From a virus, in the IMG/VR virus record IMGVR_UViG_3300022602_000338, positions 1 through 27,258 of that record: a stretch of DNA of 27,258 nucleotides. One strand, given 5' to 3'. Every line of letters starts with the position of its first letter. The first letter of the stretch is position 1. Of the stretch, positions 9,297 through 24,856 are shown in pieces. A model generated the notes under the pieces. It worked only from the letters and a program-made list of their open reading frames with translations. It ran no database searches and was not told the origin of the DNA. The position numbers were made by a program, and so were the translations under genes.

Positions 9297-12200
9297 TCAA
9301 AAGTTCAAATCTATCAATGGATTTACTAGAGTATTCAGATCGATTGTTGATAGTGTTGTAGTATTCAAATCGTAAGACTGTCCTAGTATCAAGGCTGAAC
9401 TTATTCCTGTATTTGCCATCGCCACTCTAGTCATAGTAATAAAAGTATTACCATAAGTTGGAGTGAAGTTCAAATTGATAATACCGTTGACCACATTTGC
9501 AGAGAATGTACCAGTTGGTTGGTAAGAATAGATTGAACCGAATTCTGTTACAAAGGCATCTACTTCTAATTGTAGAACCATAATCTTGGAGAACTGGTAA
9601 CCTGCGCCATCCACTAACTGTACGTCATAGATTGCACTTCTGTATGCGGAACCTGCCCATGAATCAACCTTGTTCGCCTGGTTGACTGTATTTGCCCATG
9701 TCTGTATGTTAGAGATACTAGACTGTGGTAAGGTAACTGTACCAACTGATATTGCACTATTTACGGTTACGTTACCGTTGATTGTACCGCCATTATTGAT
9801 GAAACTATTAGCAGTATTAGCTGCAATGTAAGCTGCATTAGCGGTTGTAATTGCTAGGTTTGCAGTATTAGATGCGGTAGATGCGGTAGTAAATGCAAGA
9901 TTTGCTTCTATAAAAGCTGCGTTCGCCTGTGCAAAAGCTGCATTTGCATAACCACCAGAAGAAGTATTAGCGGCCGCAAAAGCTGCATTTGCAATATTGG
10001 CTGCAAGATTTGCCTGTGCGTATGCTAAGTTTGCAGTATTACTTGCAAAAGTTATACTTGTATTTTGTGTTATGTTGATTGCATTTTGCGTATTGCTGGT
10101 ATTATTTGCAAACGCAAAAGCTGCATTAGCAATGTTGGATGCAATGTTTGCGACCAAGAAGGCAGAGTTTGCATAACCAGAAACAACAATAATATTGTTT
10201 GCATCTGTATTAGCTGCTAAATTGTAAGCAGCATTTGCCTGTGCAAAAGCTGCGTTTGCCTGAATGAAAGCGGCAGTAACGTTTGCATTTGAACCAGCCG
10301 CATTGGCAGCTGCAAAGGCCGCATTTGCTTGAGTGAAGGCCGCATTTGCTTCGATAAATGCAGAGTTAGCATATGAACCAGCTGCAAGTATACTTGCATT
10401 TTGAGTTGCATTGATTGCAATTGATATAGTGTTTAGGGTATTCGCATAGGCATAAGCTGCATTAGCAACTAAGAATCCTGAATTTGCATATGAACCGGCA
10501 GAGTTTGCAACAGAGAACACTAAGTTTGCTTCATTGAAAGCCGCATTTGCCTGTATAAAGGCACCATTTGCATATATTCCAGCTGCATTAGCAGTTGCGA
10601 AAGCCGCATTTGCATATACACCGGTTGTATTCTGTGCACCAAAAGCCGCATTGGCTTCGATAAACGCACCGTTAGCATATATGCCAGCCGCATTGGCAGT
10701 AGCATATGCTGATGTTGAGTATACTAATAGGTCTGTACCATTAATGTTTGCACGACCTGCTTCGATGACACCAACTTTTAGAGTATCGTAAGAAGTATTG
10801 GCATCAAATAAAACTGTTGAAGTTGGTTCTGTTACAACGTTAGAGAATAGTTTCCACTTCTTATCGTTGAAGTCACGAACCAAACCTGTGTGTTGGTAGT
10901 GTGAGTAACCTGTGTTACCTGTACCAATAAAGTGACCAATAAAACCAATATCTACTGCATCGGCTGAATTGTTTGCAGCCAAATAAATCATTGGATCTGT
11001 TACTGATACTGTATTTGAACTGTATGTATTGATTGATCCAGAGATATTGACATTACCAGTAATAGTAATATCACCGCCAAAGATTGCGGGACCTGATGTG
11101 TTAAGTGATAGTGCTGTACCTGTAGCAATATTCAAGGCACCAGTCATGGTATCACCAGACTTACTTACCTTTGTATTTGCCTGTGTAAATGCACCGTTTG
11201 CGTATACGCCAGCAGAGTTAGCGGCACCAAATGCACCGTTAGCGTAGATACTTGCTGAGTTAGCAACCGCAAATGCACCATTTGCCTGTGTAAAAGCGGA
11301 GTTTGCATAACCACCAGATGTATTCTGAGACTGATAAGCTGCATTGGCTTGTATGAAAGCCGCATTTGCCTGTATAAAACCAGCATTTGCAGTTATAAAG
11401 GCCGCATTAGATTGTACAAATGCACCGTTTGCATATATGGCTGCTGAGTTTGCAGTAGTATATGCTGAGTTTGCATATGAACCAACAGTTGTTATTGCAG
11501 TATTTTGGTATGCATTGACTGCACTAACAGTTGTATTGACTGAGTTAGCAAATGCATATGCAGAGTTCGCTACAAGGAAGGCACCGTTTGCATAGATTGA
11601 TGCAGAGTTTGCCACACCAAATGCAGAGTTTGCATATGAACCAGCAGAAGTTTCACCTGAGAAGGCTGCATTAGCAACCGCAAAGGCTGCATTGGCATAA
11701 TTGCCAGCTGATATTGCACTTGATAGTGCTGTGTTTGCTTGTGTGTATGCAGAGTTGGCATAACCACCTGCCGTTACTGCCTGAGATGAAGCAGTATTAG
11801 CTGCCGTAAAAGCAGAGTTAGCATAACCACCAGTTGTATTTTGTGATTGATATGCGGCATTAGCTTGTATGAAAGCCGCATTAGCCTCAATGAAGGCACC
11901 GTTGGCGTATATACCAGCGGAAGTAATTGTACTTAGTGCACTATTTGCAGCATTGTATGCACCGTTTGCCTTTGCAAAAGCACCATTCGCCTGAACAAAA
12001 GCACCATTCGCATAGATTCCACCTTCTTGTGCAATTGGTAATACGTAACTATTTACGTAATTGTTTGCAGTAATTATACTTGCGTAGTTGGTGTTTGCTT
12101 GGTTATAGGCTGCGTTTGCTTGGTTGTATGCAAGATTTGCAGATACAACCGCAGAGTTTGCAGATACAACCGCAGAGTTTGCGGTACTGTAAACACTATT

Positions 12201-12359
12201 TGCAAAGTTGTAGGCAGTCTGTGCTGTGTTAGCCGCAGTATTAGCAACATTATAAATGTTCTGTACTTCGGTATTTACATCGGTAGAACCAGTAAAAACA
12301 ACCGAACTATTGATTCTGGTCTTGTTTACACCGTTTCTGTTATTATAGTTATTTGCCAT
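9297..12359 (-). CDS. Long tail fibre of Ala/Asn heptad repeats (1020 residues)
   Basis: Most of this protein is built of seven-residue repeats of the type ANAAFxQ / YANGAFxxAN, in two blocks at about residues 38-395 and 545-875. Seven-residue spacing with Ala and aromatic residues at fixed places fits a long trimeric alpha-helical coiled coil; similar repeats are frequent in fibres of T4-like marine phages. Between the blocks is a globular shaft domain (about 398-540): SGDTMTGALNI, DPMIYLAANN, DIGFIGHF, GLVRDFNDKKWKLFSN, a familiar insert of such fibres. The C-terminus (about 890-1020) is a beta tip domain: YRSAIYDVQLVDGAGYQFSK, VTEFGSIYSY, GTFSANV, INLNFTPTYG. It is probably a host-recognition fibre or whisker. 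The start codon has only a weak Shine-Dalgarno. The underlying DNA is a degenerate 21-base repeat array, so alleles of different length are plausible. Confidence 0.78.
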   Translation of the reverse strand: MANNYNNRNGVNKTRINSSVVFTGSTDVNTEVQNIYNVANTAANTAQTAYNFANSVYSTANSAVVSANSAVVSANLAYNQANAAYNQANTNYASIITANNYVNSYVLPIAQEGGIYANGAFVQANGAFAKANGAYNAANSALSTITSAGIYANGAFIEANAAFIQANAAYQSQNTTGGYANSAFTAANTASSQAVTAGGYANSAYTQANTALSSAISAGNYANAAFAVANAAFSGETSAGSYANSAFGVANSASIYANGAFLVANSAYAFANSVNTTVSAVNAYQNTAITTVGSYANSAYTTANSAAIYANGAFVQSNAAFITANAGFIQANAAFIQANAAYQSQNTSGGYANSAFTQANGAFAVANSASIYANGAFGAANSAGVYANGAFTQANTKVSKSGDTMTGALNIATGTALSLNTSGPAIFGGDITITGNVNISGSINTYSSNTVSVTDPMIYLAANNSADAVDIGFIGHFIGTGNTGYSHYQHTGLVRDFNDKKWKLFSNVVTEPTSTVLFDANTSYDTLKVGVIEAGRANINGTDLLVYSTSAYATANAAGIYANGAFIEANAAFGAQNTTGVYANAAFATANAAGIYANGAFIQANAAFNEANLVFSVANSAGSYANSGFLVANAAYAYANTLNTISIAINATQNASILAAGSYANSAFIEANAAFTQANAAFAAANAAGSNANVTAAFIQANAAFAQANAAYNLAANTDANNIIVVSGYANSAFLVANIASNIANAAFAFANNTSNTQNAINITQNTSITFASNTANLAYAQANLAANIANAAFAAANTSSGGYANAAFAQANAAFIEANLAFTTASTASNTANLAITTANAAYIAANTANSFINNGGTINGNVTVNSAISVGTVTLPQSSISNIQTWANTVNQANKVDSWAGSAYRSAIYDVQLVDGAGYQFSKIMVLQLEVDAFVTEFGSIYSYQPTGTFSANVVNGIINLNFTPTYGNTFITMTRVAMANTGISSALILGQSYDLNTTTLSTIDLNTLVNPLIDLNF
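9790..10720 (-). repeat. Degenerate 21-base repeat array encoding fibre heptads (distal block)
   Basis: Repeated units on the plus strand resemble gcatttgcctgtgcaaaagct and variants, each encoding one ANAAFAQ-type heptad on the minus strand. Units differ mainly at third codon positions. The array codes for about residues 545-857 of the 1020-residue fibre. Confidence 0.75.
11170..12240 (-). repeat. Degenerate 21-base repeat array encoding fibre heptads (proximal block)
   Basis: Same 21-base period as the distal block, coding for about residues 40-395 of the fibre. It contains a perfect tandem pair of 21-base units and a near-identical 60-base pair (11305-11364 and 11821-11880, 53 of 60 bases the same by hand alignment), showing unequal exchange or duplication inside the gene. 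Confidence 0.75.
12139..12180 (-). repeat. Perfect tandem duplication of a 21-base unit
   Basis: Bases 12139-12159 and 12160-12180 are identical 21-base copies, encoding the heptad NSAVVSA twice. Being identical also at silent sites, this looks like a recent duplication. Confidence 0.85.
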
Positions 12360-13607: not shown

Positions 13608-14135
13608 TTAGGAAAGTTCTGCCCACCAATATATACCCGGGTAAGGGTTACTACCACTAGCGGTATATGTGACAACATAGCTTTGGCCAGGTGGAACAAT
13701 ACTAAACAAAGTTGTTGTAGCGTTGTCGTTGTAGGTTCCAATTTGCGATACTGTATTACCATTTACTATAATATAAAAATACCCTTGAAGTTGGCCGGTA
13801 TAACAATAAACAGCAAGAGCTAATGGTTTTGATCCTGTATTATAATATGTTGTACCCGCTGACCGTGTTGGAAATGACCAATTTTGACCAGCACCAAAAC
13901 CAGGAACAGCTGCAGTATTTTGTGTTGTCGCATCTCCAAAGGTAATAGTGTTACCAGAAATAGTAATTGCATTTGCAAAGTTAATCGTATTATTGGAAAT
14001 AGAAATTCCATTTGGAGCACTCAACGCTATCGCAGTCAAATTACCTACAATTTGAGTGTTTGCAATATTACTTGTTAAAACACCCGATGAATTAATATTC
14101 AATGCATGTTCAGCTAAATTTCTTGCGTTGGACAT
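13608..14135 (-). CDS. Small tail fibre / adhesin with MSNARN start
   Basis: This 175-residue protein starts MSNARNLAEHALNINSSG, like the collar protein at 12746. Residues 20-80 are triple-beta-type repeats (VLTSNIANTQIVGNLTAIAL, NGISISNNTINFANAITISG, NTITFGDATTQNTAA). After FGAGQNW comes a C-terminal domain of about 90 residues: TTYYNTGSKPLALAVYCYTG, GYFYIIVNGNTVSQIG, SIVPPGQSYVV and a closing YWWAEL. The layout (YTNT-type start, internal VNG strand, IVPPG-x-YVV turn, W near the end) recurs at the tips of phage fibres and is probably a small beta-sandwich receptor-binding head. Its start codon at 14135 shares a base with the stop of the S74 fibre upstream (TAATG), so it may be made in proportion to that fibre and assemble with it; this is inference. 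Confidence 0.68.
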   Translation of the reverse strand: MSNARNLAEHALNINSSGVLTSNIANTQIVGNLTAIALSAPNGISISNNTINFANAITISGNTITFGDATTQNTAAVPGFGAGQNWSFPTRSAGTTYYNTGSKPLALAVYCYTGQLQGYFYIIVNGNTVSQIGTYNDNATTTLFSIVPPGQSYVVTYTASGSNPYPGIYWWAELS

Positions 14136-15103
14136 TATTTACTGCCTTTTAGTGCATCTATTTCTGCTTTTAGTTCGATGATTGCTTGAAATGCTAGTGC
14201 ACTTAGTTTTGCATAATCGACCACTTTGATTCCACTTGGACGAGTTCTGACTGCCGTTGGGAATACTACCTCAACATCTTGTGCAATAACACCAAAGTCA
14301 TGTTTCACACTAAAGAATCCGTCTTCACCACCACGTTGCTCAACAATTTCATTCTTCCAATCAAATGTTTTACCACCAATCGCTTCAACAATACTCAAAG
14401 CATTTGCAATCGGGTGTACATTTTCTTTCAAAGTAATATCAGAAGAATAGAAGGCAGTAATATCATTTATTGCACGAATTTCACCTGATGTACCTGATGG
14501 AGCAGTACCAACACCAAGTGAGTTTACTTGGATGTTTGCCGTTGTTGTTATATTACCAGCAATAATTGCAGTCTGTGCTGACCAATATGGTGCACCTGCA
14601 CCTGAACTTGTCAGGATTTGACCTAAGGTACCTACAGCTGTATTACTTGTAGTGTTTGCAGCAGATTGATAGATCACAGTACCTGGTGCACCACCGTTGA
14701 TATTGGATACTGATGCAACTGTATATGCAAACACATCGATAGTTTCATTACCAGTTGTATTAGTGGTAAGAATAATTGTATTGCCAGTTGATGCAGTATA
14801 ATCGGTAGGTTCTAATAGAACACCGTTCATGAATAATTGTATATAACCTGGTGTGTATGTTAGTGTTGAACTAAATGTACCTGAATTGATAGTATTTGTA
14901 CTACCAGATATAGTGGCAGTATAACGATTGAATGATGTTGTACCAGAACCGCCTGCACCACCGCCACCGATTGTTGTAGTAGTTGCATTAGTAACACGAC
15001 CATCAACACCAACGGTAATGATAGGTAATTGTGTTGAAGAACCATAAGTTCCTGCAACAACAGCTGTTGATGCTATCGTGGATGTAGCGACTTTTGTTGT
15101 CAT
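14135..15103 (-). CDS. Tail fibre with S74 (endosialidase-type) intramolecular chaperone, second copy
   Basis: The 322-residue protein opens with a fibre motif, VVAGTYGSSTQLPIITVGVDGRVT (16-38), then a Gly-rich hinge (GGGGAGG, 46-52), a knob module with LFMNGVLLEPTDYTASTGN (from residue 90), and a shaft with SGAGAPYWSAQTAII and NITTTANIQVNSLGVGT. From about residue 219 comes a chaperone domain: SDITLKENV (221-229), with Ser221 and Lys226 placed like the Ser-Lys dyad that cuts the S74 domain off after folding, then FDWK, HDFGVIAQDVEVVFP and VDYAKLSALAFQAIIELKAE. The S74 domain helps the fibre trimerise and then releases itself. It overlaps the larger S74 fibre by ATGA. It differs in sequence from that fibre's S74 domain, so it is not a recent copy. 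Confidence 0.82.
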   Translation of the reverse strand: MTTKVATSTIASTAVVAGTYGSSTQLPIITVGVDGRVTNATTTTIGGGGAGGSGTTSFNRYTATISGSTNTINSGTFSSTLTYTPGYIQLFMNGVLLEPTDYTASTGNTIILTTNTTGNETIDVFAYTVASVSNINGGAPGTVIYQSAANTTSNTAVGTLGQILTSSGAGAPYWSAQTAIIAGNITTTANIQVNSLGVGTAPSGTSGEIRAINDITAFYSSDITLKENVHPIANALSIVEAIGGKTFDWKNEIVEQRGGEDGFFSVKHDFGVIAQDVEVVFPTAVRTRPSGIKVVDYAKLSALAFQAIIELKAEIDALKGSK

Positions 15104-16992
15104 TTGATTAGACCTCTAATTTCATTTACTTCGGACTTTAGTTCTTTGATTGCCTCAATCAATAGAGGTATCATTTTTTCATATTGAACTGTTAGATATT
15201 TGTCATCGATAGGTGCAGGTACAACTACTTCAGGTAGTATTGATTGTACTTCTTGTGCAGATACACCAACTTGACGGTGTTTTTCATATCCCAAAGATTC
15301 TGCAAGTGGACTTTCTTCGTAATAGAAACCATTCAATGATAATAATTTATCCAATGCACCGTCAATATTACCCAAACGAATCTTCAAACGATCATCTGAG
15401 TAGTATGCGGTGATATTATTGATTGCACGAATAGAACCAGTATTTGCAGAATCTGCGGCAGTACCAACACCAATAGATGCGAACTGTACGTTACTTGTAT
15501 TTGCAATTGATTGTGGTAATGATAATACAACATTACCTGTTGCAGCGTTTGCAGAAATTTGATTTGTTGTACCTGTTAGAGTAGTAACTACACTAGATGC
15601 AATTGTATTTGCAAAGTTATATGCCGCATTTGCTTGTGTGTAAGCCGCATTTGCTTTTGCAAAGGCTGCATTAGCAGTATTAGATGTTGGTGCAATTTGT
15701 GGTGCAACATTATTAGCAGCTGCAAAGGCTGCATTAGCATAATTCTGAACAGCTGCGGTAAATCCTAATGCACCATCAATCGCTAATTGTACTGTGTTTT
15801 GTGCATAAGACAAATAGGTTGTATTTGCGGTGTATGATGTATTGTTTGCAAAGAAAGCGGATGTGAAAGCATCAACTTCGGCCATAATCAAATCACCGGA
15901 CGTTGCCGCATTAGTCAATGTGAATGTTGTATTTGAAGATTCTGTGACATCTGAATTGTATTGTCTTACACCGTTGATATAAACACGAAGTTGTCCTGCT
16001 CCAGTTGTATAAGCAGGAACACCAGTAAATACAGTTTGACCACCTGTGGCAGTATAGAAGATTCGATTTGTTGTAAGTGTATTTCCACCTGCACCGCCAC
16101 CTCCGCCACCACCTACACCCCAATAGAATTGTCCAGCACCTGTAGTTGATAGAACATAACCAGAAACTTGACCAGATTGTGGTAATAAATTATTCAATGC
16201 ACCAATTGCAGTATTTGCACCAGTACCGCCTTGAGAAATTGAAAGTGGAGCCGTTAGATTCAATGATGCAAATCTTGGTGTTGCAGTATTTGAAACATCT
16301 TGTTGTGTATTGATGAATATAATATCACCTGTACCAACAATAGAAACACCATTATTACTTCTCATTACGATATTGCCGTTCAATGGGTTTGCAACACCAC
16401 TTGTACAGTTGAATGAGTTAGCCGCACCAGCAGAAGTAGAAGATACTAAACTGTATAGTGCATTTACTGTATTAGATGTTGCAAGAGTTGTCGTAGATGT
16501 AGACATCAAAGACGAACTTACTAAATTTGCGGTAAGTATTTGTGAGTATGCGGTAGATTGATTAGAATCATTTACATCTAATATATCCCAATACTTGTTG
16601 GTTTCATTCCAACGTATACTTGCGCTCTGACCGTAAGGTCTGAACACATTATAAGAACCGTTTACATTATAGATTGAACCTGAATTGGTAAAGAAACTAT
16701 TACTTTGGTATACTGTTGCACCAGAAATAGTCAAGTTACCAGTTGAAGTTAGATTTCTAACCGATGCGGTTGTGATTGTAGTTAGACCTAAAAATTCAGC
16801 GGCAGTATTTGCCTGCAACGCCATAATAGGATCGTTTAGGTAAAGTGTACCAGTATTTTTGTAAAAATTATTAGCCGCAAGGTCATTGTTCTGTTGCACC
16901 AACGAAGCAGTTGTGACTACCCAATCAAGAAAGGTATTTGCTGTTGTGAGTGGATTGAATACTTGTGCTGGATTATACGTTGGTTGAGCCAT
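15100..16992 (-). CDS. Tail fibre with S74 chaperone domain (630 residues)
   Basis: The N-terminus, ANTFLDWVVTTASLVQQNNDLA (18-39), resembles the attachment end of fibres in T4-like marine phages. A triple-beta shaft follows, with the QGGTGANTAIGALNNLLP fibre phrase (about 255-272) and a long Gly hinge (WGVGGGGGGGAGG, about 288-300). A knob module carries TGGQTVF, VYINGVRQY and AEVDAF. A short heptad segment (about 424-470; NTANAAFAKANAAYTQANAA) resembles the 1020-residue fibre. The S74 chaperone begins near 530: SDDRLK (532-537, with Ser and Lys at the dyad positions), LLSLNGFYYEE, QVGVSAQEVQSILPEVV and LTVQYEKMIPLLIEAIKELK. This is a full-length candidate host-recognition fibre. Its ATG overlaps the coiled-coil mini-gene by 20 bases and has AGAAGG seven bases upstream. 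Confidence 0.83.
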   Translation of the reverse strand: MAQPTYNPAQVFNPLTTANTFLDWVVTTASLVQQNNDLAANNFYKNTGTLYLNDPIMALQANTAAEFLGLTTITTASVRNLTSTGNLTISGATVYQSNSFFTNSGSIYNVNGSYNVFRPYGQSASIRWNETNKYWDILDVNDSNQSTAYSQILTANLVSSSLMSTSTTTLATSNTVNALYSLVSSTSAGAANSFNCTSGVANPLNGNIVMRSNNGVSIVGTGDIIFINTQQDVSNTATPRFASLNLTAPLSISQGGTGANTAIGALNNLLPQSGQVSGYVLSTTGAGQFYWGVGGGGGGGAGGNTLTTNRIFYTATGGQTVFTGVPAYTTGAGQLRVYINGVRQYNSDVTESSNTTFTLTNAATSGDLIMAEVDAFTSAFFANNTSYTANTTYLSYAQNTVQLAIDGALGFTAAVQNYANAAFAAANNVAPQIAPTSNTANAAFAKANAAYTQANAAYNFANTIASSVVTTLTGTTNQISANAATGNVVLSLPQSIANTSNVQFASIGVGTAADSANTGSIRAINNITAYYSDDRLKIRLGNIDGALDKLLSLNGFYYEESPLAESLGYEKHRQVGVSAQEVQSILPEVVVPAPIDDKYLTVQYEKMIPLLIEAIKELKSEVNEIRGLIK

Positions 16993-17210: not shown

Positions 17211-19469
17211 TTAGATACCTGTTCCTGCTGGTAATGCCAAAGCACGAATATCTGTCAAGAATGGTGGGTTTGTATTGTCATTTGTTGCCATTACAACCTT
17301 GATTGCAAACTGAATGAAGTTTGTGAATGAAGTGCCGTTTGTATTAGTGTATGATATTTGATTATTTGCATAACCATTTGCAGGTAACCAAGTACCTGGT
17401 GCACATTCAAATTCAATTAGATTAGATTGGTCGGTAGAGTACGCAGATACACCAATTTGAGTCATCAATTGCCATGAACCATCATCAAATTTCTGAGTAT
17501 CACTTGAACTTAGAATCTTATAGTACACATACACTTGAGAACCTTGTGGTTTGTAAGCAGTATAATATACACGCAAGTCACCAGAATCTTGTCCTGGATT
17601 TAGAACAACTTTCTTAGTAAAGTATCTTGACCATCCGTTACCACCGTGTGGTGATGTTTCACCTGTAACAGTAGCGATTGCAGTTGAAGTATTAGTACCA
17701 GTGATTGTAACTGTTGGTGTTGTGATATAACCAGAACCTGGGTTTACTACCCATACATTTGTAATTACACCATTTGCAACGTTAGCTGCAAGAGTTGCTT
17801 GTGAACCTAATGTTGTATCTGTTGGTGCAGAAATTAGGATTGCCGCATTGGCTGATGTTGAAGTAATAATACCGTTACCATTACTTAGATAACCAGAACC
17901 ACCTTTGACCAAAGCGACCACGTTGTTACCGATAGTCATGTTGTTGATCATGTATCGTATATTATATAATGTCACTCCGTCATCGGAGATAATTGGAGAT
18001 ACGTTTGCATCTGTTGAACTCAATGTTGCAGTCATTGTGAATGAACTATTAGAGTTAGCAACGATTAGACGTTCACCTAGACCATCACCTAAGAAGATAT
18101 TAGATGGAGTTGGTGAACCATACGTACCTGGATTTACACTATATGGTCCTACAGGTTGTAAACCATTTGCAAGAGTAGAATTATACTGATAAGAAATGCC
18201 TGTTGATGTTGGTACAAAATCTGTAGTTGTTAAGTTATATGCATCAGAACGCATATGACTTTGAATTTGATAACTTCCGTTCACCGCAGCTAAACCAGAT
18301 ATACTACCCATATTACCGTAATTGTTTTGTACAGTTGATGCATCTAGTTTATGGTTGATATCATTACGTCCAAATTTTCTAAATGGCATACCTTGCAATA
18401 CATTGAATTGTACATTTGGTTGTACATTTGTATTGAATATACATTGTTCAATAGTAAACATCAAGTCTTTAGTTTGATCCGCAGTCCAAGTAATAGAGTT
18501 CTGAGATTCAAATAATGCACCAACATATGGTGTATTACCAATCTTAGTTGGGTTAGTTGGATTATTATCTGTTGGTTTTGCTTTTGCTGTAGATGGAACC
18601 GCAAGTTGATTCTGTTGTGCATAGTAAATTTGATAATCTGGAGAAGAAGCTCTTATAACAAAAGCATATAATGTACCAGATTGGATATAAACAGGCGCAC
18701 TAAATTCAAATTCTGTGTATGTTTTTGGATCTAAGTAGTGTGGTGTTGAAGAAACTTTTATATCATTCCCAGATTTAGTTACTGTAGAATAAGATAATGC
18801 ACTACCTGATGGGAAACCATTTACTGTAGGGATAATATACAATGATACTGGGAAGTTTCCTGAATTTGGTTTCTTTGCAAAGAATATTTTGACAGATTTC
18901 AAAAATACACCGTTAGGAAAACTTGATTTGTTTATCAAGAATGTTTGTGCAATTGGATCATATGGAGTATATGTGGTAATTGTACTAATCAATTGTGATG
19001 GTCCATTCATAACAGATGTAAATGTCTGAGATGATGCATCAACTGATGGTGCAAATTCTAATTTTTGAGACTGTGTAGATAGACCAGATGCAGTAAATGT
19101 TGCCTCAGCATAACATGTTGCTGAACCAGGATCAGTTGCAACAGTTCTATTGTCAACACGAAACACTCTTGAACCAGTTTGAAATTTTGCAGGTGGTACA
19201 TTGAATATACCAACAAAATTACCCGATTCGTCCGTAGTCAATGCCGGCGCACCACCTTGTGTAGTTGCCTGAGATATATTCAATGACTGACCAGTAATAC
19301 TATACGTTGAGGATATTTGGCCAAGAACAGCATTATATCCTAATGATATGTTTACTGGTTTATCTAGAACAATAGCTTTTGTTGATGGATTGTATGATAC
19401 AATATTAGCAGTTTGAGTTACTGTCTGACTCAATATTTGCGTTGGACTTGTTGTGTAATTATATGACAT
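17211..19469 (-). CDS. Large baseplate/virion protein, companion of the DUF4815 protein
   Basis: The 752-residue protein contains the phrase YDPIAQTFLINKSSFPNGVF (170-189), then KSVKIFFAKK, SLYIIPTVNGFPSG, FEFSAPVYIQSGTLYAFVIR (254-273), PYVGALFESQNSITWTADQT (314-333) and KDLMFTIEQCIF. I recall this DPxAQTF-containing block from large baseplate-associated structural proteins of T4-like phages, often in the same polypeptide as, or adjacent to, a DUF4815 domain. A module at about 520-605 (KGGSGY and VNPGSGYITTPTVTITG) repeats one in the gp8-like protein. The C-terminus (SGDLRVYYTAYKP, VYVYYKILSSSD, FIQFAIKVVM, FLTDIRALALP) is a beta domain typical of the family. The gene takes the place of T4 genes 9-11, so a peripheral baseplate role is likely. 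Shine-Dalgarno AGGAA lies before the ATG. An AATAAATA box lies at 19492-19499, inside the end of the previous gene. Confidence 0.72.
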   Translation of the reverse strand: MSYNYTTSPTQILSQTVTQTANIVSYNPSTKAIVLDKPVNISLGYNAVLGQISSTYSITGQSLNISQATTQGGAPALTTDESGNFVGIFNVPPAKFQTGSRVFRVDNRTVATDPGSATCYAEATFTASGLSTQSQKLEFAPSVDASSQTFTSVMNGPSQLISTITTYTPYDPIAQTFLINKSSFPNGVFLKSVKIFFAKKPNSGNFPVSLYIIPTVNGFPSGSALSYSTVTKSGNDIKVSSTPHYLDPKTYTEFEFSAPVYIQSGTLYAFVIRASSPDYQIYYAQQNQLAVPSTAKAKPTDNNPTNPTKIGNTPYVGALFESQNSITWTADQTKDLMFTIEQCIFNTNVQPNVQFNVLQGMPFRKFGRNDINHKLDASTVQNNYGNMGSISGLAAVNGSYQIQSHMRSDAYNLTTTDFVPTSTGISYQYNSTLANGLQPVGPYSVNPGTYGSPTPSNIFLGDGLGERLIVANSNSSFTMTATLSSTDANVSPIISDDGVTLYNIRYMINNMTIGNNVVALVKGGSGYLSNGNGIITSTSANAAILISAPTDTTLGSQATLAANVANGVITNVWVVNPGSGYITTPTVTITGTNTSTAIATVTGETSPHGGNGWSRYFTKKVVLNPGQDSGDLRVYYTAYKPQGSQVYVYYKILSSSDTQKFDDGSWQLMTQIGVSAYSTDQSNLIEFECAPGTWLPANGYANNQISYTNTNGTSFTNFIQFAIKVVMATNDNTNPPFLTDIRALALPAGTGI

Positions 19470-19486: not shown

Positions 19487-22400
19487 TTAACTATTTATTG
19501 TCTGTACTTTAGGTTGTTTCTTGAACAACCCTTTCACTTTGTTTATGATTGCATTAGTACCAGATACTGCAACAACACCTACTAATAATATCGTTACTGT
19601 TCCCCAGATTGCCAAAATCTTAGCTGCTAAAGGTAACTTAGTATCACTTTGAATCTTACCAACTTTACGGCATAATGGTAGACCAAAGTCCATAATCATT
19701 CTACCTGCTGGATTAGATTTGTTATGTCCTTTAGCACGCATACGATATGCCATTTCTTCTGCCCATGGACGTGCTAACATGTCCATGTAGTAACAAACAA
19801 TATTCTGTTGAATTTTAATTCTACGGTCTTTATCTTTTACCCAGAACAATATAACTTTACGTAGAGATTCTGAACCTTGTCCGTCCATCAAATCAACTAC
19901 AGTTTGTGCCCAACGGATATAACCCAGATAAGCTAAACGATCATTTGTTTGTAGTTCACGACCAAATCTTTGATCAGCTTCGTTCATTTCTTTATCGAAA
20001 TAACCCAACTCTGAAAGTTTCTTACAGATAATTTTACCGCCACCGCCACCGCCACTTGGTGGTGGAGGTGGAACATATGTTGCAGTTTCTAATGTGTAAC
20101 TGTATGCATATGTAGATGTAATTGTAATCTGTGCACCTTGGTAATACGTTTGGGTATTTGCAGTTGCATTTTGATCTAATGCAAGTGATGTTACACCAGA
20201 GAACCATGCACCACCTTGTGGCATTACTGCTTCACCAGTTGCATTTTTATATGCTAGTGAAGGTGGATTTGTTGTTGTAAATACAATGTTACCATTTGGA
20301 TCATTTACAACTAAAGCAAAACCAGATGTGCCTGCAGGTGTTCCGTTACCACCAGTTATACTCCATGCCAACGTCAATGGTGCACCAACTTGTGCAGAGG
20401 TAACAGTAAATGATAATGGTACTGAGTGTGAAGTATAATTAGGTACTGCACCTGATAAGATAGTTGCACCGTTGGCAGTTAGACTTGTTGTACCTGTTGT
20501 AGAATAGATGTATGTATATACACCTGGAACTTGTGGAGTTACCTGGAATGATGCACTATAAGATGCAGATAAATTCAAATCTCCCCAAACACCATATTGA
20601 TTTAGGAATGTACTCCAATTACTTGTATCTTTTACCGCATATAATTGGAATGTTTGACCGTTGAATGTGTAACCACCGCCAACACCTGTTGTTACACCGT
20701 TCGTATGTATTGGAGTAACTGCTGTATTGATAGTACCAAATGCAGTATTTGCAGCGTTGCCTGTATAGTTTCCATTTATATCGTAGAAACCATTTTGAAT
20801 CTTAGTTGATGTTGAATACGGTACAGCCCCAGTAACATTAGAAACATATAGACGAACATTGTTTGTTCCTGGATATACGTATGTTCCTTCTACACGTCCT
20901 GTTGGGTAGAATACGCCAGCAGAATTTACATAGAAACCAACTACATCGCCTGGACTAAATGAACCAGATACGTTTGTCAACTCGATTGTGTTTGGCATTG
21001 TAACATATTGATTTATATTTTGACCATCAAACCATACAGAAACTGGAGCATTTACCAATAAACCTTGTGTAAAGAAACCAATTTGTTGTTGACGAATATA
21101 AGGCAACAATGAAACGTTTGTCAAGTAACCGTTACTAGAACTCAATATAGAATTTACAGACGTAGTGTTTAGTGTTGTGTTGATATTCTGTAATTGACTT
21201 GCATATGTGTTCGTAGTTGTTGCAGTATAACCAACAGATGAACCATATGGACTGTTTACGTTTGCATTACCGTGATTGACAACAGATACAGAACTTGTTG
21301 ATGAGTATGCTGTACCTGGAATAGTTGCAAAGTCACCAGCATTGGTCAAGTTTACACCAGCAGATTGCTGGAACACTTGCATATTAGGATCAGTAATCAA
21401 TAATGCAGGTGCTTGAATGTTATCTACCCAGTTGTCCATTGGTGGGAATAGATTTGCAACACCTTGATATACAGTTACACCAAATGGATTCAAACTAACT
21501 GTGTTAGATGCCAATACTTGTGTCACTAAGTTTGCAGTTGTGTATGGTAAAGTATAGATGTTTGTACCTGTACCACCAAGACTTGATACTGCAAAAGTAT
21601 TTGTGTTTTGTAATGTACCAAGAGATGCAGCAACAATAGGATTTTGTAATTGTAGGTTATCAACAAGTGCAATTGGACCTAATCTTTGATTTCTGATATT
21701 GATGTTTGCAGTAAAATCTGGATTATATGTGTCAGCAGTACCAAAAGAACTAAAGTCATCAACTAGAATACCATTTTTGAAACGGTTTAAACCATTTGAA
21801 TCTGGTACTTGTATTGACTGTGCATTTTGTTCCAATAAACTCAATGATGTATAGTACTCTAAGTTGTTTACACGAGTCTGTAAATCGGAGATGTCAGACT
21901 TAGCCCAACGGTTGTGTGATACTGGATTGATAGACAGGTTAGCTGCCTTGCCTACTGGGTTTTCACCAGGAACATATGCAGTATATGGATCAAGTGTTAG
22001 ATTAGCTAACAGTAATGAACCTGTTGGTTGTGATGGTAGTATTGGATTTAGTGATGGATTACCTTCAACGATTTGGAAGGATTTATCTTTACTCAATACT
22101 AATATATCTTTTCTTCCCAAATAATATGAATATGTACTTGCAAATAAAGACAAATCGGTTGGCATCAATGCACCAGAACCCGCAAATTCAAATGAGAGTG
22201 TTGTAGTTCCATTCAATCTAGATGGTCTAAAGTCAAGAACATCTGCCAATTTATAAGTGTTACCACTCTTGGCTAGATATGTTGGAATATTTTGTATCGT
22301 ATCTGGGTTTGATGAGTTCAGATATGAACTGATTGAGAAGTAACCGTCAGATGCAGTACCTGTACCTAAGTTTGTATTACCGTTGATGTGTGAGTAGTAA

Positions 22401-24856
22401 TTGAATATGACAAGTAAGTTACCAGCAGCTGGGTTTGCACCAGGTAATAACTGGATACTTGCATGGTCATAGAAGTTATCACGTTGACCGTTATCAAATT
22501 GGTATTGACCTGTTACGTTTGTGTATGAAGCCAAACCTGATAAAACAGGTTGTACTGATGCTGATCCTGTGTCATAGATTGCAGTAACATTTTTCAAATC
22601 GGCAACACGTAGTGATATCTTACCAGTACCTGTACCAGCATTTTGAATAATTGCTTGACCTAATTGTAAGTCAATTGCTGTGTTTACATCACCAGTAACT
22701 ACTTTGTATGAAGATAAGTTTGCACTTGTTACTTGAGTATTTGAACCTGTAACCAAGTTTTTCCATTTCAAAATAGGGAATGAATCACCATTTGAAATTG
22801 TAACAGAAGCAATTACATATACTGTCTTGTTTGCATATGTTGTATTGGTAAAAGTTAAAGTTTGTTTAAGTGAATCTAAAGATACTGATGAACCTGCAAC
22901 TGTATAATCTAAAATTTGTCCTGTTGAACTATCAATAACAGTATAGTATTGTTTGATGATACTAGGTGCTTGTACAGCACCAGCAGTACCGATAAAATTC
23001 AAATCTGTACCAGCAGTAATGTTGAATGTGCCAGAAACACCAGTAGAACCTGGAGAATATGTCTTAGTAGATTGATATGTAGAGTTTGAAATTGAAGCAA
23101 CATAAGGATTGCCAACTTGGAAAATCATTTCTGGAGAACCAGAATTTTCTAAGATCGCTGGGTTTACAACCAATCCACCAACTTTACCGAATACTGTATT
23201 GATATTTACACTTGATGCTACGGTATTATTTGCACCAGGAAGAATAAGTGATTCTACAGAACCTATAGAAGGTGAAACAGTTATAAAAGAAGTTGCATCT
23301 GGTGTAACTGTAAATGGTTTGTCAACAATAAAACTTGTTGCATTGTAATAAATGATGTTACGAATATCACCTGCACTTGTACCTGATGTAACTGTAAGTG
23401 TCATACCATAGTATGCATTAGATACAGCAGATAGTTTATTTTGTGGATCGTATAATGTGATTGTAGTTGGACTTGTTGTAAATGCAACGTTAGCACTTAT
23501 TGAATTTATATTCAAATCAGAAACGTATGCTTTATAAACCCAAGTGTTAGAAGAACCAGAATCTTGTACATATACTAAGTTACGGATATAACCTGTACCA
23601 ATCTTGGTTGCATTGTATGCATTGTTTGATGATGTAACAATACTACTTGCAGTCACACAATGTAAATCGATTGGAGGCATATTGGTTACATTGAAGAAAC
23701 CATGTACAGTATCAACATAGTAATAAGAACCAACGTCAACAAATACATCATTGTTGTTGATAGATACAGTTGACCTTGCACGGTCAGTAGTCAATGTCAA
23801 TGGTGATTGATTCTCGATTCTGTATCCATGGACGTATGCAATACCTTTACTAATGCTTAGATCATACTGTGCAGAATTATATACGTTTGCTGATGGTGTG
23901 AACGTGAATGGTGTAACTAGATAGTCACCGTTTGTTTCATAATCACGTTTTGCAAAGTAGTCATCGATGGTAGAGTAAACTGTACCATCAACTTGAGAAA
24001 CGATTTGACCAGAATTGATACGAACTAATTCAATAAAGTTAGAATCATTACCAATTGCCAATGGAAGATATGTCAATGTCAAAGTAATTTGGTATCTATC
24101 TGCACCAGGTGCTTGATAGTTAGATGCACCGATTGCAGGATCTAATAGTGAACTATCAGATGTATAATCAATAATATTTTCTGCGATTGCAAGACCAACA
24201 CGAGCAGTTGGTGTATTAGAATATTTACTTAGAACAATCGTTTGTGGGTTTACTTGTACAAAGTTACCAATAGAATAGTTTGTTCCAGCGGAAGACTTAG
24301 AGTAACCGTTTACAACGTAGAAAACACCAGAAGAAATAGATGCTACTGATGATAGACCAGTACATGTTGTACCGCCTGTTGTACCAACTGTTGTAGCCTG
24401 ATATTGTGAACTACTATCGTTTGTTTGGATGATTGATGCATCTGTAAACTGGATACCTGATAGGTAAGATACAATCAATGTTGGTGGATCTGCAAGTGTT
24501 GGTTCAATAACTGTAATAACTTTTGCAATAACTGTTCCTGTTGCTGCATCTGTAATGTAACGACCTGAACCATCCGCATTTAGGAAATTAGAAACAGAAA
24601 TAGTAGAAGTACCAAATGTTGCCACTAATTTTACATAGTAACAAGTTAGATTGGTTGTAACTTTACCTCCAGATACTGGAGTATTCTGTGAAAATATATT
24701 GTCAGCAAAATTAGAGATTTGATTTTGCAGAATTGTTTGGGATTGTGTTAGTTCACGTCCTTGAACTGCAAAACCTGGCTTGAATAAAACACGGTGGTAA
24801 TTTTTAGATGGATCAAAATCATCGTAGTACGGTGAAACATTGAAATTTTCTGACAT
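19487..24856 (-). CDS. Giant DUF4815-type baseplate/virion protein with fused helical C-terminal domain
   Basis: The 1789-residue protein begins with the DUF4815 signature: DDFDPSKNYHRVLFKPGFAV (12-31) and QGRELTQSQTILQNQI (32-47). The family's function is uncharacterised but it is carried by many T4-like phages as a large virion protein. Around residue 980-1010 is a conserved helical junction (NRWAKSDISDLQTRVNNLEY). Then come beta-rich repeats to about 1590. A PPPPPSGGGGGG linker (1596-1607) joins an unrelated-looking domain of about 180 residues: KIICKKLSELGYF, EADQRFG, YIRWAQTVVDLMDG, ARPWAEEMAYRM and NPAGRMIMDFGLPLCRKVGK. It ends with a hydrophobic span (about 1745-1764) and a basic tail. 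That last domain resembles the Cys-containing module (CFI-box type) found at C-termini of diverse phage virion proteins. The gene occupies the place of T4 genes 9/10. AAGGAA precedes the ATG. Confidence 0.75.
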   Translation of the reverse strand: MSENFNVSPYYDDFDPSKNYHRVLFKPGFAVQGRELTQSQTILQNQISNFADNIFSQNTPVSGGKVTTNLTCYYVKLVATFGTSTISVSNFLNADGSGRYITDAATGTVIAKVITVIEPTLADPPTLIVSYLSGIQFTDASIIQTNDSSSQYQATTVGTTGGTTCTGLSSVASISSGVFYVVNGYSKSSAGTNYSIGNFVQVNPQTIVLSKYSNTPTARVGLAIAENIIDYTSDSSLLDPAIGASNYQAPGADRYQITLTLTYLPLAIGNDSNFIELVRINSGQIVSQVDGTVYSTIDDYFAKRDYETNGDYLVTPFTFTPSANVYNSAQYDLSISKGIAYVHGYRIENQSPLTLTTDRARSTVSINNNDVFVDVGSYYYVDTVHGFFNVTNMPPIDLHCVTASSIVTSSNNAYNATKIGTGYIRNLVYVQDSGSSNTWVYKAYVSDLNINSISANVAFTTSPTTITLYDPQNKLSAVSNAYYGMTLTVTSGTSAGDIRNIIYYNATSFIVDKPFTVTPDATSFITVSPSIGSVESLILPGANNTVASSVNINTVFGKVGGLVVNPAILENSGSPEMIFQVGNPYVASISNSTYQSTKTYSPGSTGVSGTFNITAGTDLNFIGTAGAVQAPSIIKQYYTVIDSSTGQILDYTVAGSSVSLDSLKQTLTFTNTTYANKTVYVIASVTISNGDSFPILKWKNLVTGSNTQVTSANLSSYKVVTGDVNTAIDLQLGQAIIQNAGTGTGKISLRVADLKNVTAIYDTGSASVQPVLSGLASYTNVTGQYQFDNGQRDNFYDHASIQLLPGANPAAGNLLVIFNYYSHINGNTNLGTGTASDGYFSISSYLNSSNPDTIQNIPTYLAKSGNTYKLADVLDFRPSRLNGTTTLSFEFAGSGALMPTDLSLFASTYSYYLGRKDILVLSKDKSFQIVEGNPSLNPILPSQPTGSLLLANLTLDPYTAYVPGENPVGKAANLSINPVSHNRWAKSDISDLQTRVNNLEYYTSLSLLEQNAQSIQVPDSNGLNRFKNGILVDDFSSFGTADTYNPDFTANINIRNQRLGPIALVDNLQLQNPIVAASLGTLQNTNTFAVSSLGGTGTNIYTLPYTTANLVTQVLASNTVSLNPFGVTVYQGVANLFPPMDNWVDNIQAPALLITDPNMQVFQQSAGVNLTNAGDFATIPGTAYSSTSSVSVVNHGNANVNSPYGSSVGYTATTTNTYASQLQNINTTLNTTSVNSILSSSNGYLTNVSLLPYIRQQQIGFFTQGLLVNAPVSVWFDGQNINQYVTMPNTIELTNVSGSFSPGDVVGFYVNSAGVFYPTGRVEGTYVYPGTNNVRLYVSNVTGAVPYSTSTKIQNGFYDINGNYTGNAANTAFGTINTAVTPIHTNGVTTGVGGGYTFNGQTFQLYAVKDTSNWSTFLNQYGVWGDLNLSASYSASFQVTPQVPGVYTYIYSTTGTTSLTANGATILSGAVPNYTSHSVPLSFTVTSAQVGAPLTLAWSITGGNGTPAGTSGFALVVNDPNGNIVFTTTNPPSLAYKNATGEAVMPQGGAWFSGVTSLALDQNATANTQTYYQGAQITITSTYAYSYTLETATYVPPPPPSGGGGGGKIICKKLSELGYFDKEMNEADQRFGRELQTNDRLAYLGYIRWAQTVVDLMDGQGSESLRKVILFWVKDKDRRIKIQQNIVCYYMDMLARPWAEEMAYRMRAKGHNKSNPAGRMIMDFGLPLCRKVGKIQSDTKLPLAAKILAIWGTVTILLVGVVAVSGTNAIINKVKGLFKKQPKVQTINS

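Follow-up and report, generated by a model that had tools for sequence, protein, structure and literature searches.

A 27,258-bp stretch of viral DNA (an IMG/VR record, called the window here) raises the question of what a small helical domain does at the end of a giant phage protein. The genes of the window form a T4-like contractile tail set with a baseplate wedge homologue (phrog_438), tail fibres, the head closure protein Hc2, the head-tail adaptor Ad2, and a tail sheath stabilizer. Among 50,697 phage records, there was no megablast relative over the first 25 kb of the window. The protein in question, P0001, has 1,789 residues and is encoded on the minus strand by the ORF at 19487-24856, and its C-terminal end reads ...VPPPPPSGGGGGG-KIICKK....

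The initial annotation had described P0001 as about 1,590 beta-rich residues followed by a linker and a helical domain, and we recovered the linker-tethered domain as proposed. A linker of five prolines, a serine, and six glycines (PPPPPSGGGGGG; P1596 to G1607; 20036..20071, minus strand), read directly from the sequence, precedes a KIIC helical C-terminal module of 182 aa (residues 1608 to 1789; 19490..20035, minus strand), which is supported by its relatives and an AlphaFold2 model. The described switch in composition was also present, with Lys plus Arg rising from 3.7% in residues 1 to 1590 to 17.0% in residues 1608 to 1789, Trp from 0.6 to 2.2%, and Met from 0.6 to 4.4%. The long region before the module is not one domain, however. 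Residues 1 to about 1373 (20738..24856, minus strand) are a DUF4815/phrog_358 part that matched Pfam PF16075 at an E value of 3.7e-58 and phrog_358 profile positions 5 to 1268 at an E value of 5.5e-227. P0001 scored 197.7 bits against PF16075 (gathering cut-off, 30), and the module alone gave no match. Residues 1399 to 1590 (20087..20662, minus strand) form a separate beta domain with a WSTFLNQYGVW motif, which can be called PA14-like by analogy only, with PA14 matches below the Pfam cut-off nearby in two carriers of the same motif (L011 and L009).

The AlphaFold2 model of the window module was all helical (pLDDT, 81.7; pTM, 0.70). The C-terminal core of a distant relative from Puniceispirillum phage HMO-2011, modeled alone, gave five helices in the same order (pLDDT, 89.8; pTM, 0.79). 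The predicted core comprises approximately 100 to 130 aa in five helices, and its start is marked by an [IV]-[IV]-C box whose Cys is invariant. Among 45 distinct module sequences, 34 positions were conserved at 95% or more. Three Cys residues had looked conserved in the single sequence; C1611 is invariant (45/45) and C1729 is Cys in 40/45, but C1688 is shared by only 2/45. With a single invariant Cys, we rejected a disulfide among the three. The PWAEEMAY block that had been picked out is conserved within the window's group, but only the Gly of NPAGRMIM is conserved superfamily-wide. The only superfamily-wide invariants are C4, G38-Y39, and G111, which speaks against an enzyme. We define the superfamily here by a Cys-box start, GY in helix 3, a Gly before the last core helix, and C-terminal placement; the window module carries C4, G38-Y39, and G111 and ends at the C terminus of P0001.

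Searches of Pfam, NCBIfam, and the PDB gave no meaningful family match for the module, and PHROG matches were weak and scattered. We took a circular bacteriocin match (TIGR03651; E value of 0.02, below the cut-off) and PHROG matches such as that to the phrog_770 DNA transfer protein (E value of 0.017) as chance. Foldseek searches of the PDB with the window model and the HMO-2011 core model found no resembling fold (best E values, 0.84 and 6.2), and a literature search restricted to open-licence papers found none describing the module. We are nearly certain of the family-level facts.

The hydrophobic span near the end of the module, ILAIWGTVTILLVGVVAVSGT (residues 1747 to 1767; 19556..19618, minus strand), is real. 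Its mean hydropathy over 19 residues (KD19) of 2.40 was the highest of the 21 window proteins (next, 1.61), its Wimley-White octanol value was -7.2, and it is uncharged, membrane-competent, and followed by a tail with a net charge of +5. Judged by hydropathy only, the end of the module fits a tail-anchored layout, with a single hydrophobic helix near the C terminus and a short charged tail. The span was not confidently packed into a soluble core, since AlphaFold2 placed it in a separate final helix (H136-171) along which the pLDDT fell from about 70 to 47. A KD19 segment of at least 1.6 followed the core in 78 of 83 members of the window's group. An uncharged run of 15 to 25 residues is present in the final helix throughout the window's subgroup, whereas in a sister subgroup, the span is interrupted by Lys or Arg after at most 11 residues. 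HMO-2011-type and pelagiphage HTVC033P-type modules keep the Cys start and the core and have no final hydrophobic helix. A Gly-zipper-like hydrophobic segment (KD19, 1.42 to 1.77) instead stands just before the core in nine podovirus-type carriers (L214, L215, L217, L218, L220, L222, L228, L266, and L268). The membrane segment is accessory to the five-helix core because it is altered or absent in other subgroups and groups. Of the membrane proposal in the initial annotation, the membrane-competent helix at the C terminus holds up for the window's subgroup, and the membrane function is weakened by the HMO-2011-type and pelagiphage-type modules; as a universal function of the module, membrane anchoring was rejected, the segment being missing in two groups.

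Relatives of the module occur in number far outside DUF4815 proteins, in agreement with the earlier impression of a module seen on assorted phage proteins. Scans of viral contigs, confirmed by tblastn, gave 62 viral relatives from the window sequence and 101, 80 of them listed, from the alignment. A Foldseek search of BFVD with the window model returned an uncultured DUF4815 protein, another of 616 aa (60% identity), and the 762-aa S4S2E0 (probability, 1.00; 21% identity). From its length and identity, the 616-aa protein is probably gp28 of SynMITS9220M01, and S4S2E0 is probably gp49 of HMO-2011, given the 762-aa length and an HMM match to the C terminus. Two further groups were reached from HMO-2011 gp49, the HMO-2011 type and the pelagiphage HTVC033P type (which includes MW202481), for a total of 168 distinct members in three sequence groups. 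Profile comparison joined alignments A1 and A2 at 98.4% (E value of 6e-15) and A2 and A3 at 98.8% (E value of 1e-16). The direct match between the window and pelagiphage groups (A1 and A3) was weak (probability, 20%), and their link runs via the HMO-2011 group. The C-terminal domains of HMO-2011 gp49 and Pelagibacter phage HTVC033P gp76 have a core homologous to that of the window module but lack the final hydrophobic helix and, between helices 3 and 4, have about 24 fewer residues; both carriers are unannotated and adjoin a portal-type gene.

Members were found in only 5 of the 50,697 catalogued phage records (SynMITS9220M01, two HMO-2011 records, HTVC033P, and MW202481) yet in many environmental phages, so the module is nearly invisible to culture-based work. 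HMO-2011, HTVC033P, and SynMITS9220M01 are tractable cultured systems that carry it. A scan of bacterial and archaeal genomes with the window-group alignment gave a single partial match, on a 4.6-kb Desulfobacteraceae MAG contig (L144:3805-3921), which is probably phage DNA.

The proteins that carry the module are diverse, and by homology and gene position, they are predicted to be virion proteins. N-terminal clustering of the window's group gave approximately 20 carrier classes, a few being truncated duplicates, among them DUF4815 proteins, gp5-type OB hubs (L103 matched phrog_694 at an E value of 1e-30), Cys/Asn-rich small proteins, Gly-rich proteins, PA14- or laminin-G-bearing proteins, and others; Gly_rich_2 and laminin-G carriers are adhesin-like. 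The other two groups have podovirus carriers, one of which, that of MW202481, is itself a DNA-ejection protein homologue (phrog_4287; E value of 2.6e-7). Two podovirus genomes have a second copy, carried by a 427- or 458-aa protein that neighbours the phrog_4287 ejection protein in the same short gene cluster. Beside the phrog_4287 ejection gene, three podovirus records also conserve a small acetyltransferase-like ORF (L231:6800-7198, L266:3864-4301, and L268:3925-4359). Linkers rich in Gly, Pro, Cys-Asn, or Arg precede the module in homologues. About 24 small carriers (L045, L048, L050, L053, and others) have 80 to 162 aa before the module, with a Cys-Asn repeat linker (NCNCNCS) replacing Gly/Pro and a Cys/Asn-rich body, for which metal binding or disulfide cross-linking is possible. 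L006 and L064 (SynMITS9220M01 gp28) show a long poly-Pro run and then eight Arg residues immediately before the module.

Whatever the carrier, all 168 distinct members lay no more than 33 residues from the C terminus. On a quick module tree with many weak forks, the carrier class, taken from the N-terminal clustering, changed at least 27 times, and DUF4815 carriers fell in several separate places. The sequences also point to recent movement of the module between unrelated genes: L032 and L033 share 85% nucleotide identity over their last 526 bp and no other similarity between both genes, and in L056 and L041, similarity is confined to the module, at 92.5% identity. In two overlapping sets of long or cultured records, 19 of 21 and 19 of 23 had a single copy, and the remainder had two, on nearby genes in G007 and G018 and on different podovirus proteins in G023 and G025. 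One copy per record is a minimum because most records are of unknown completeness.

In the window, the module sits inside what is elsewhere a single reading frame. The downstream ORF of 752 aa (17211..19469, minus strand) is another part of the same phrog_358 protein (profile positions 1309 to 1629; E value of 7e-87), and residues 1 to 1373 of P0001 and the 752-aa ORF align to opposite ends of single intact proteins of 2,094 to 2,129 aa in L302, L303, and L306. Against the intact 2,126-aa protein of L302, the N-terminal part of P0001 was 44% identical over residues 1 to 1388, and the 752-aa ORF aligned to residues 1435 to 2122. Approximately 47 residues (1389 to 1434 of the L302 protein) are replaced in the window by the FLNQYGVW domain, the linker, the module, a stop, and a new start. 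The 752-aa ORF restarts 17 nt after the module stop codon, at a junction (TAAtctattcAGGAatttaaATG) with a Shine-Dalgarno-like AGGA. L002, L067, L068, L033, and L091 are arranged likewise, and their downstream ORF, also separate, matches the 752-aa protein; L021, L092, L093, L123, L308, and L309 show this at weaker similarity. Conversely, the genomes of L302, L303, L306, G015, G016, G019, and SynMITS9220M01 have long DUF4815 frames (2,085 to 2,544 aa) and the module on another protein, so the module is optional in the DUF4815/phrog_358 proteins, of which the window carrier is one. DUF4815 proteins lacking it, in genomes that have it on a different protein, measured 2,094 to 2,542 aa. Fusion in the long-frame genomes, instead of fission in the window-type genomes, is compatible with this distribution; either way, the module keeps a free C terminus.

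Mobility between unrelated carriers, constant C-terminal placement, and usual occurrence once per genome suggest that the module has a specific job, most probably one performed at the envelope of the host in the course of infection. Our leading but tentative reading is that it is a C-terminal docking module, optionally anchored in the membrane, that works at the host envelope while the genome is being delivered or shortly afterwards. It would be a binding or docking domain rather than an enzyme, and the phage would present it on the protein that it brings to the envelope, be this a tail-tip, baseplate, adhesin, or ejection protein. With the hydrophobic helix, the myovirus versions could enter the host membrane or rest on its surface; some podovirus versions have the Gly-zipper-like segment upstream of the core instead. 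Consistent with envelope docking, the carriers include gp5-type hub, DNA-ejection homologue, DUF4815 baseplate-cluster, and adhesin-like proteins; the neighbour of P0001 is the phrog_438 baseplate wedge homologue; and second podovirus copies lie beside the ejection protein. Strict C-terminality, the low copy number, and the two kinds of hydrophobic segment agree with it as well. Less easily accommodated are the HMO-2011-type and pelagiphage-type modules, which have no membrane segment on either side and sit on hydrophilic carriers with no assigned place in the virion; carriers that resemble outer adhesins and need not reach the inner membrane; and the sister subgroup with its broken span.

The same tail-anchor layout would suit insertion from the cytoplasm, and the module might accordingly serve morphogenesis. 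It would then hold newly made tail, baseplate, or internal proteins to an assembly partner or to the host inner membrane, on its cytoplasmic face, and would have no role in the next infection. The position of the carriers within structural gene clusters and the strict C-terminal placement fit such a tether. We nevertheless consider it rather unlikely, since an assembly tether should stay with one step, whereas the carrier varies by lineage from gp5-type hub to adhesin-like protein, and the anchor is missing in two of the three groups. That Gly_rich_2, laminin-G, and PA14-like proteins are frequent among the carriers, and that the FLNQYGVW beta domain directly precedes the module in P0001, would suit an adhesion module that binds a receptor or keeps the particle attached to the cell surface, with the hydrophobic segment as a buried helix instead of a bilayer segment. 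Host-range domains usually diversify fast, whereas this core keeps its 34 near-invariant positions across unrelated carriers, and neither the gp5-type hub carriers nor those that are ejection proteins count as adhesins; we regard adhesion as improbable.

It is still more doubtful that the module works like the S74 endosialidase chaperones, as an intramolecular domain that assists the folding or maturation of its carrier and is afterwards removed by cleavage at the Gly linker. Although it is C-terminal, linker separated, and common to carriers of different folds, it has no Pfam match of any kind (none to Peptidase_S74 in the window module or 22 members), its carriers share no common family, and a genome usually has a single copy, although a folding aid ought to recur on several fibres of the same phage. 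Least of all do we expect distant kinship with the bacterial CFI-box C-terminal domains (NF041770) and a function as a C-terminal sorting tag. The initial annotation had suggested the kinship, but only the layout is alike: hhalign comparison with 25 NF041770 domains aligned from bacterial genomes (A5) gave a probability of <1% against all four module alignments (A1 to A4), 0 of 22 members matched NF041770 at an E value of ≤1, and the window record gave no match to it. The bacterial domain spans 69 positions with C-F-x-A-T-A, FRD, YY, and SP motifs and occurs in many copies in some bacterial genomes; the A5 consensus set against A4 showed neither the CFIATAA box nor the FRD and YY-SPP motifs in the module. 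What the two have in common, a Gly-rich linker, a Cys-box start, helices, a hydrophobic helix, and a basic tail, explains why the CFI-box reading suggested itself.

Evolved VgrG and gp5 spikes offer another comparison. Evolved VgrGs carry effectors behind the hub domain, and in L095, L100, L102, and L103, the module stands at that place, where it follows a Pro/Gly linker and, before that, a gp5-type OB hub domain. Unlike that cargo, the module matches no effector or toxin family, and other lineages have it without the hub, the gp5 OB carrier being limited to these four.

Mobile domains on phage structural proteins are known, such as Ig-like, S74, and lectin-like domains. An obligately C-terminal, nearly single-copy, carrier-independent module is a sign of a common step under strong selection, as yet unnamed. 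With slightly more reserve than for envelope docking, we suggest that T4-like, jumbo, and podovirus-type phages may have in common an undescribed, carrier-agnostic infection module, kept at about one copy per genome at the free C terminus of a membrane-reaching virion protein and re-mounted by recombination dozens of times, including by interruption of a giant baseplate gene.

Two other loci of the window, both on the minus strand, deserve mention. At 9297-12359, a 1,020-aa protein consists of YANSAF/AANAAF-type repeats and has no PHROG match at an E value of ≤1e-5. At 14135-16992, two neighbouring tail-fibre-type ORFs both have an end that by eye appears S74-like (SDITLKENVHPI and DDRLKIRLGNI).
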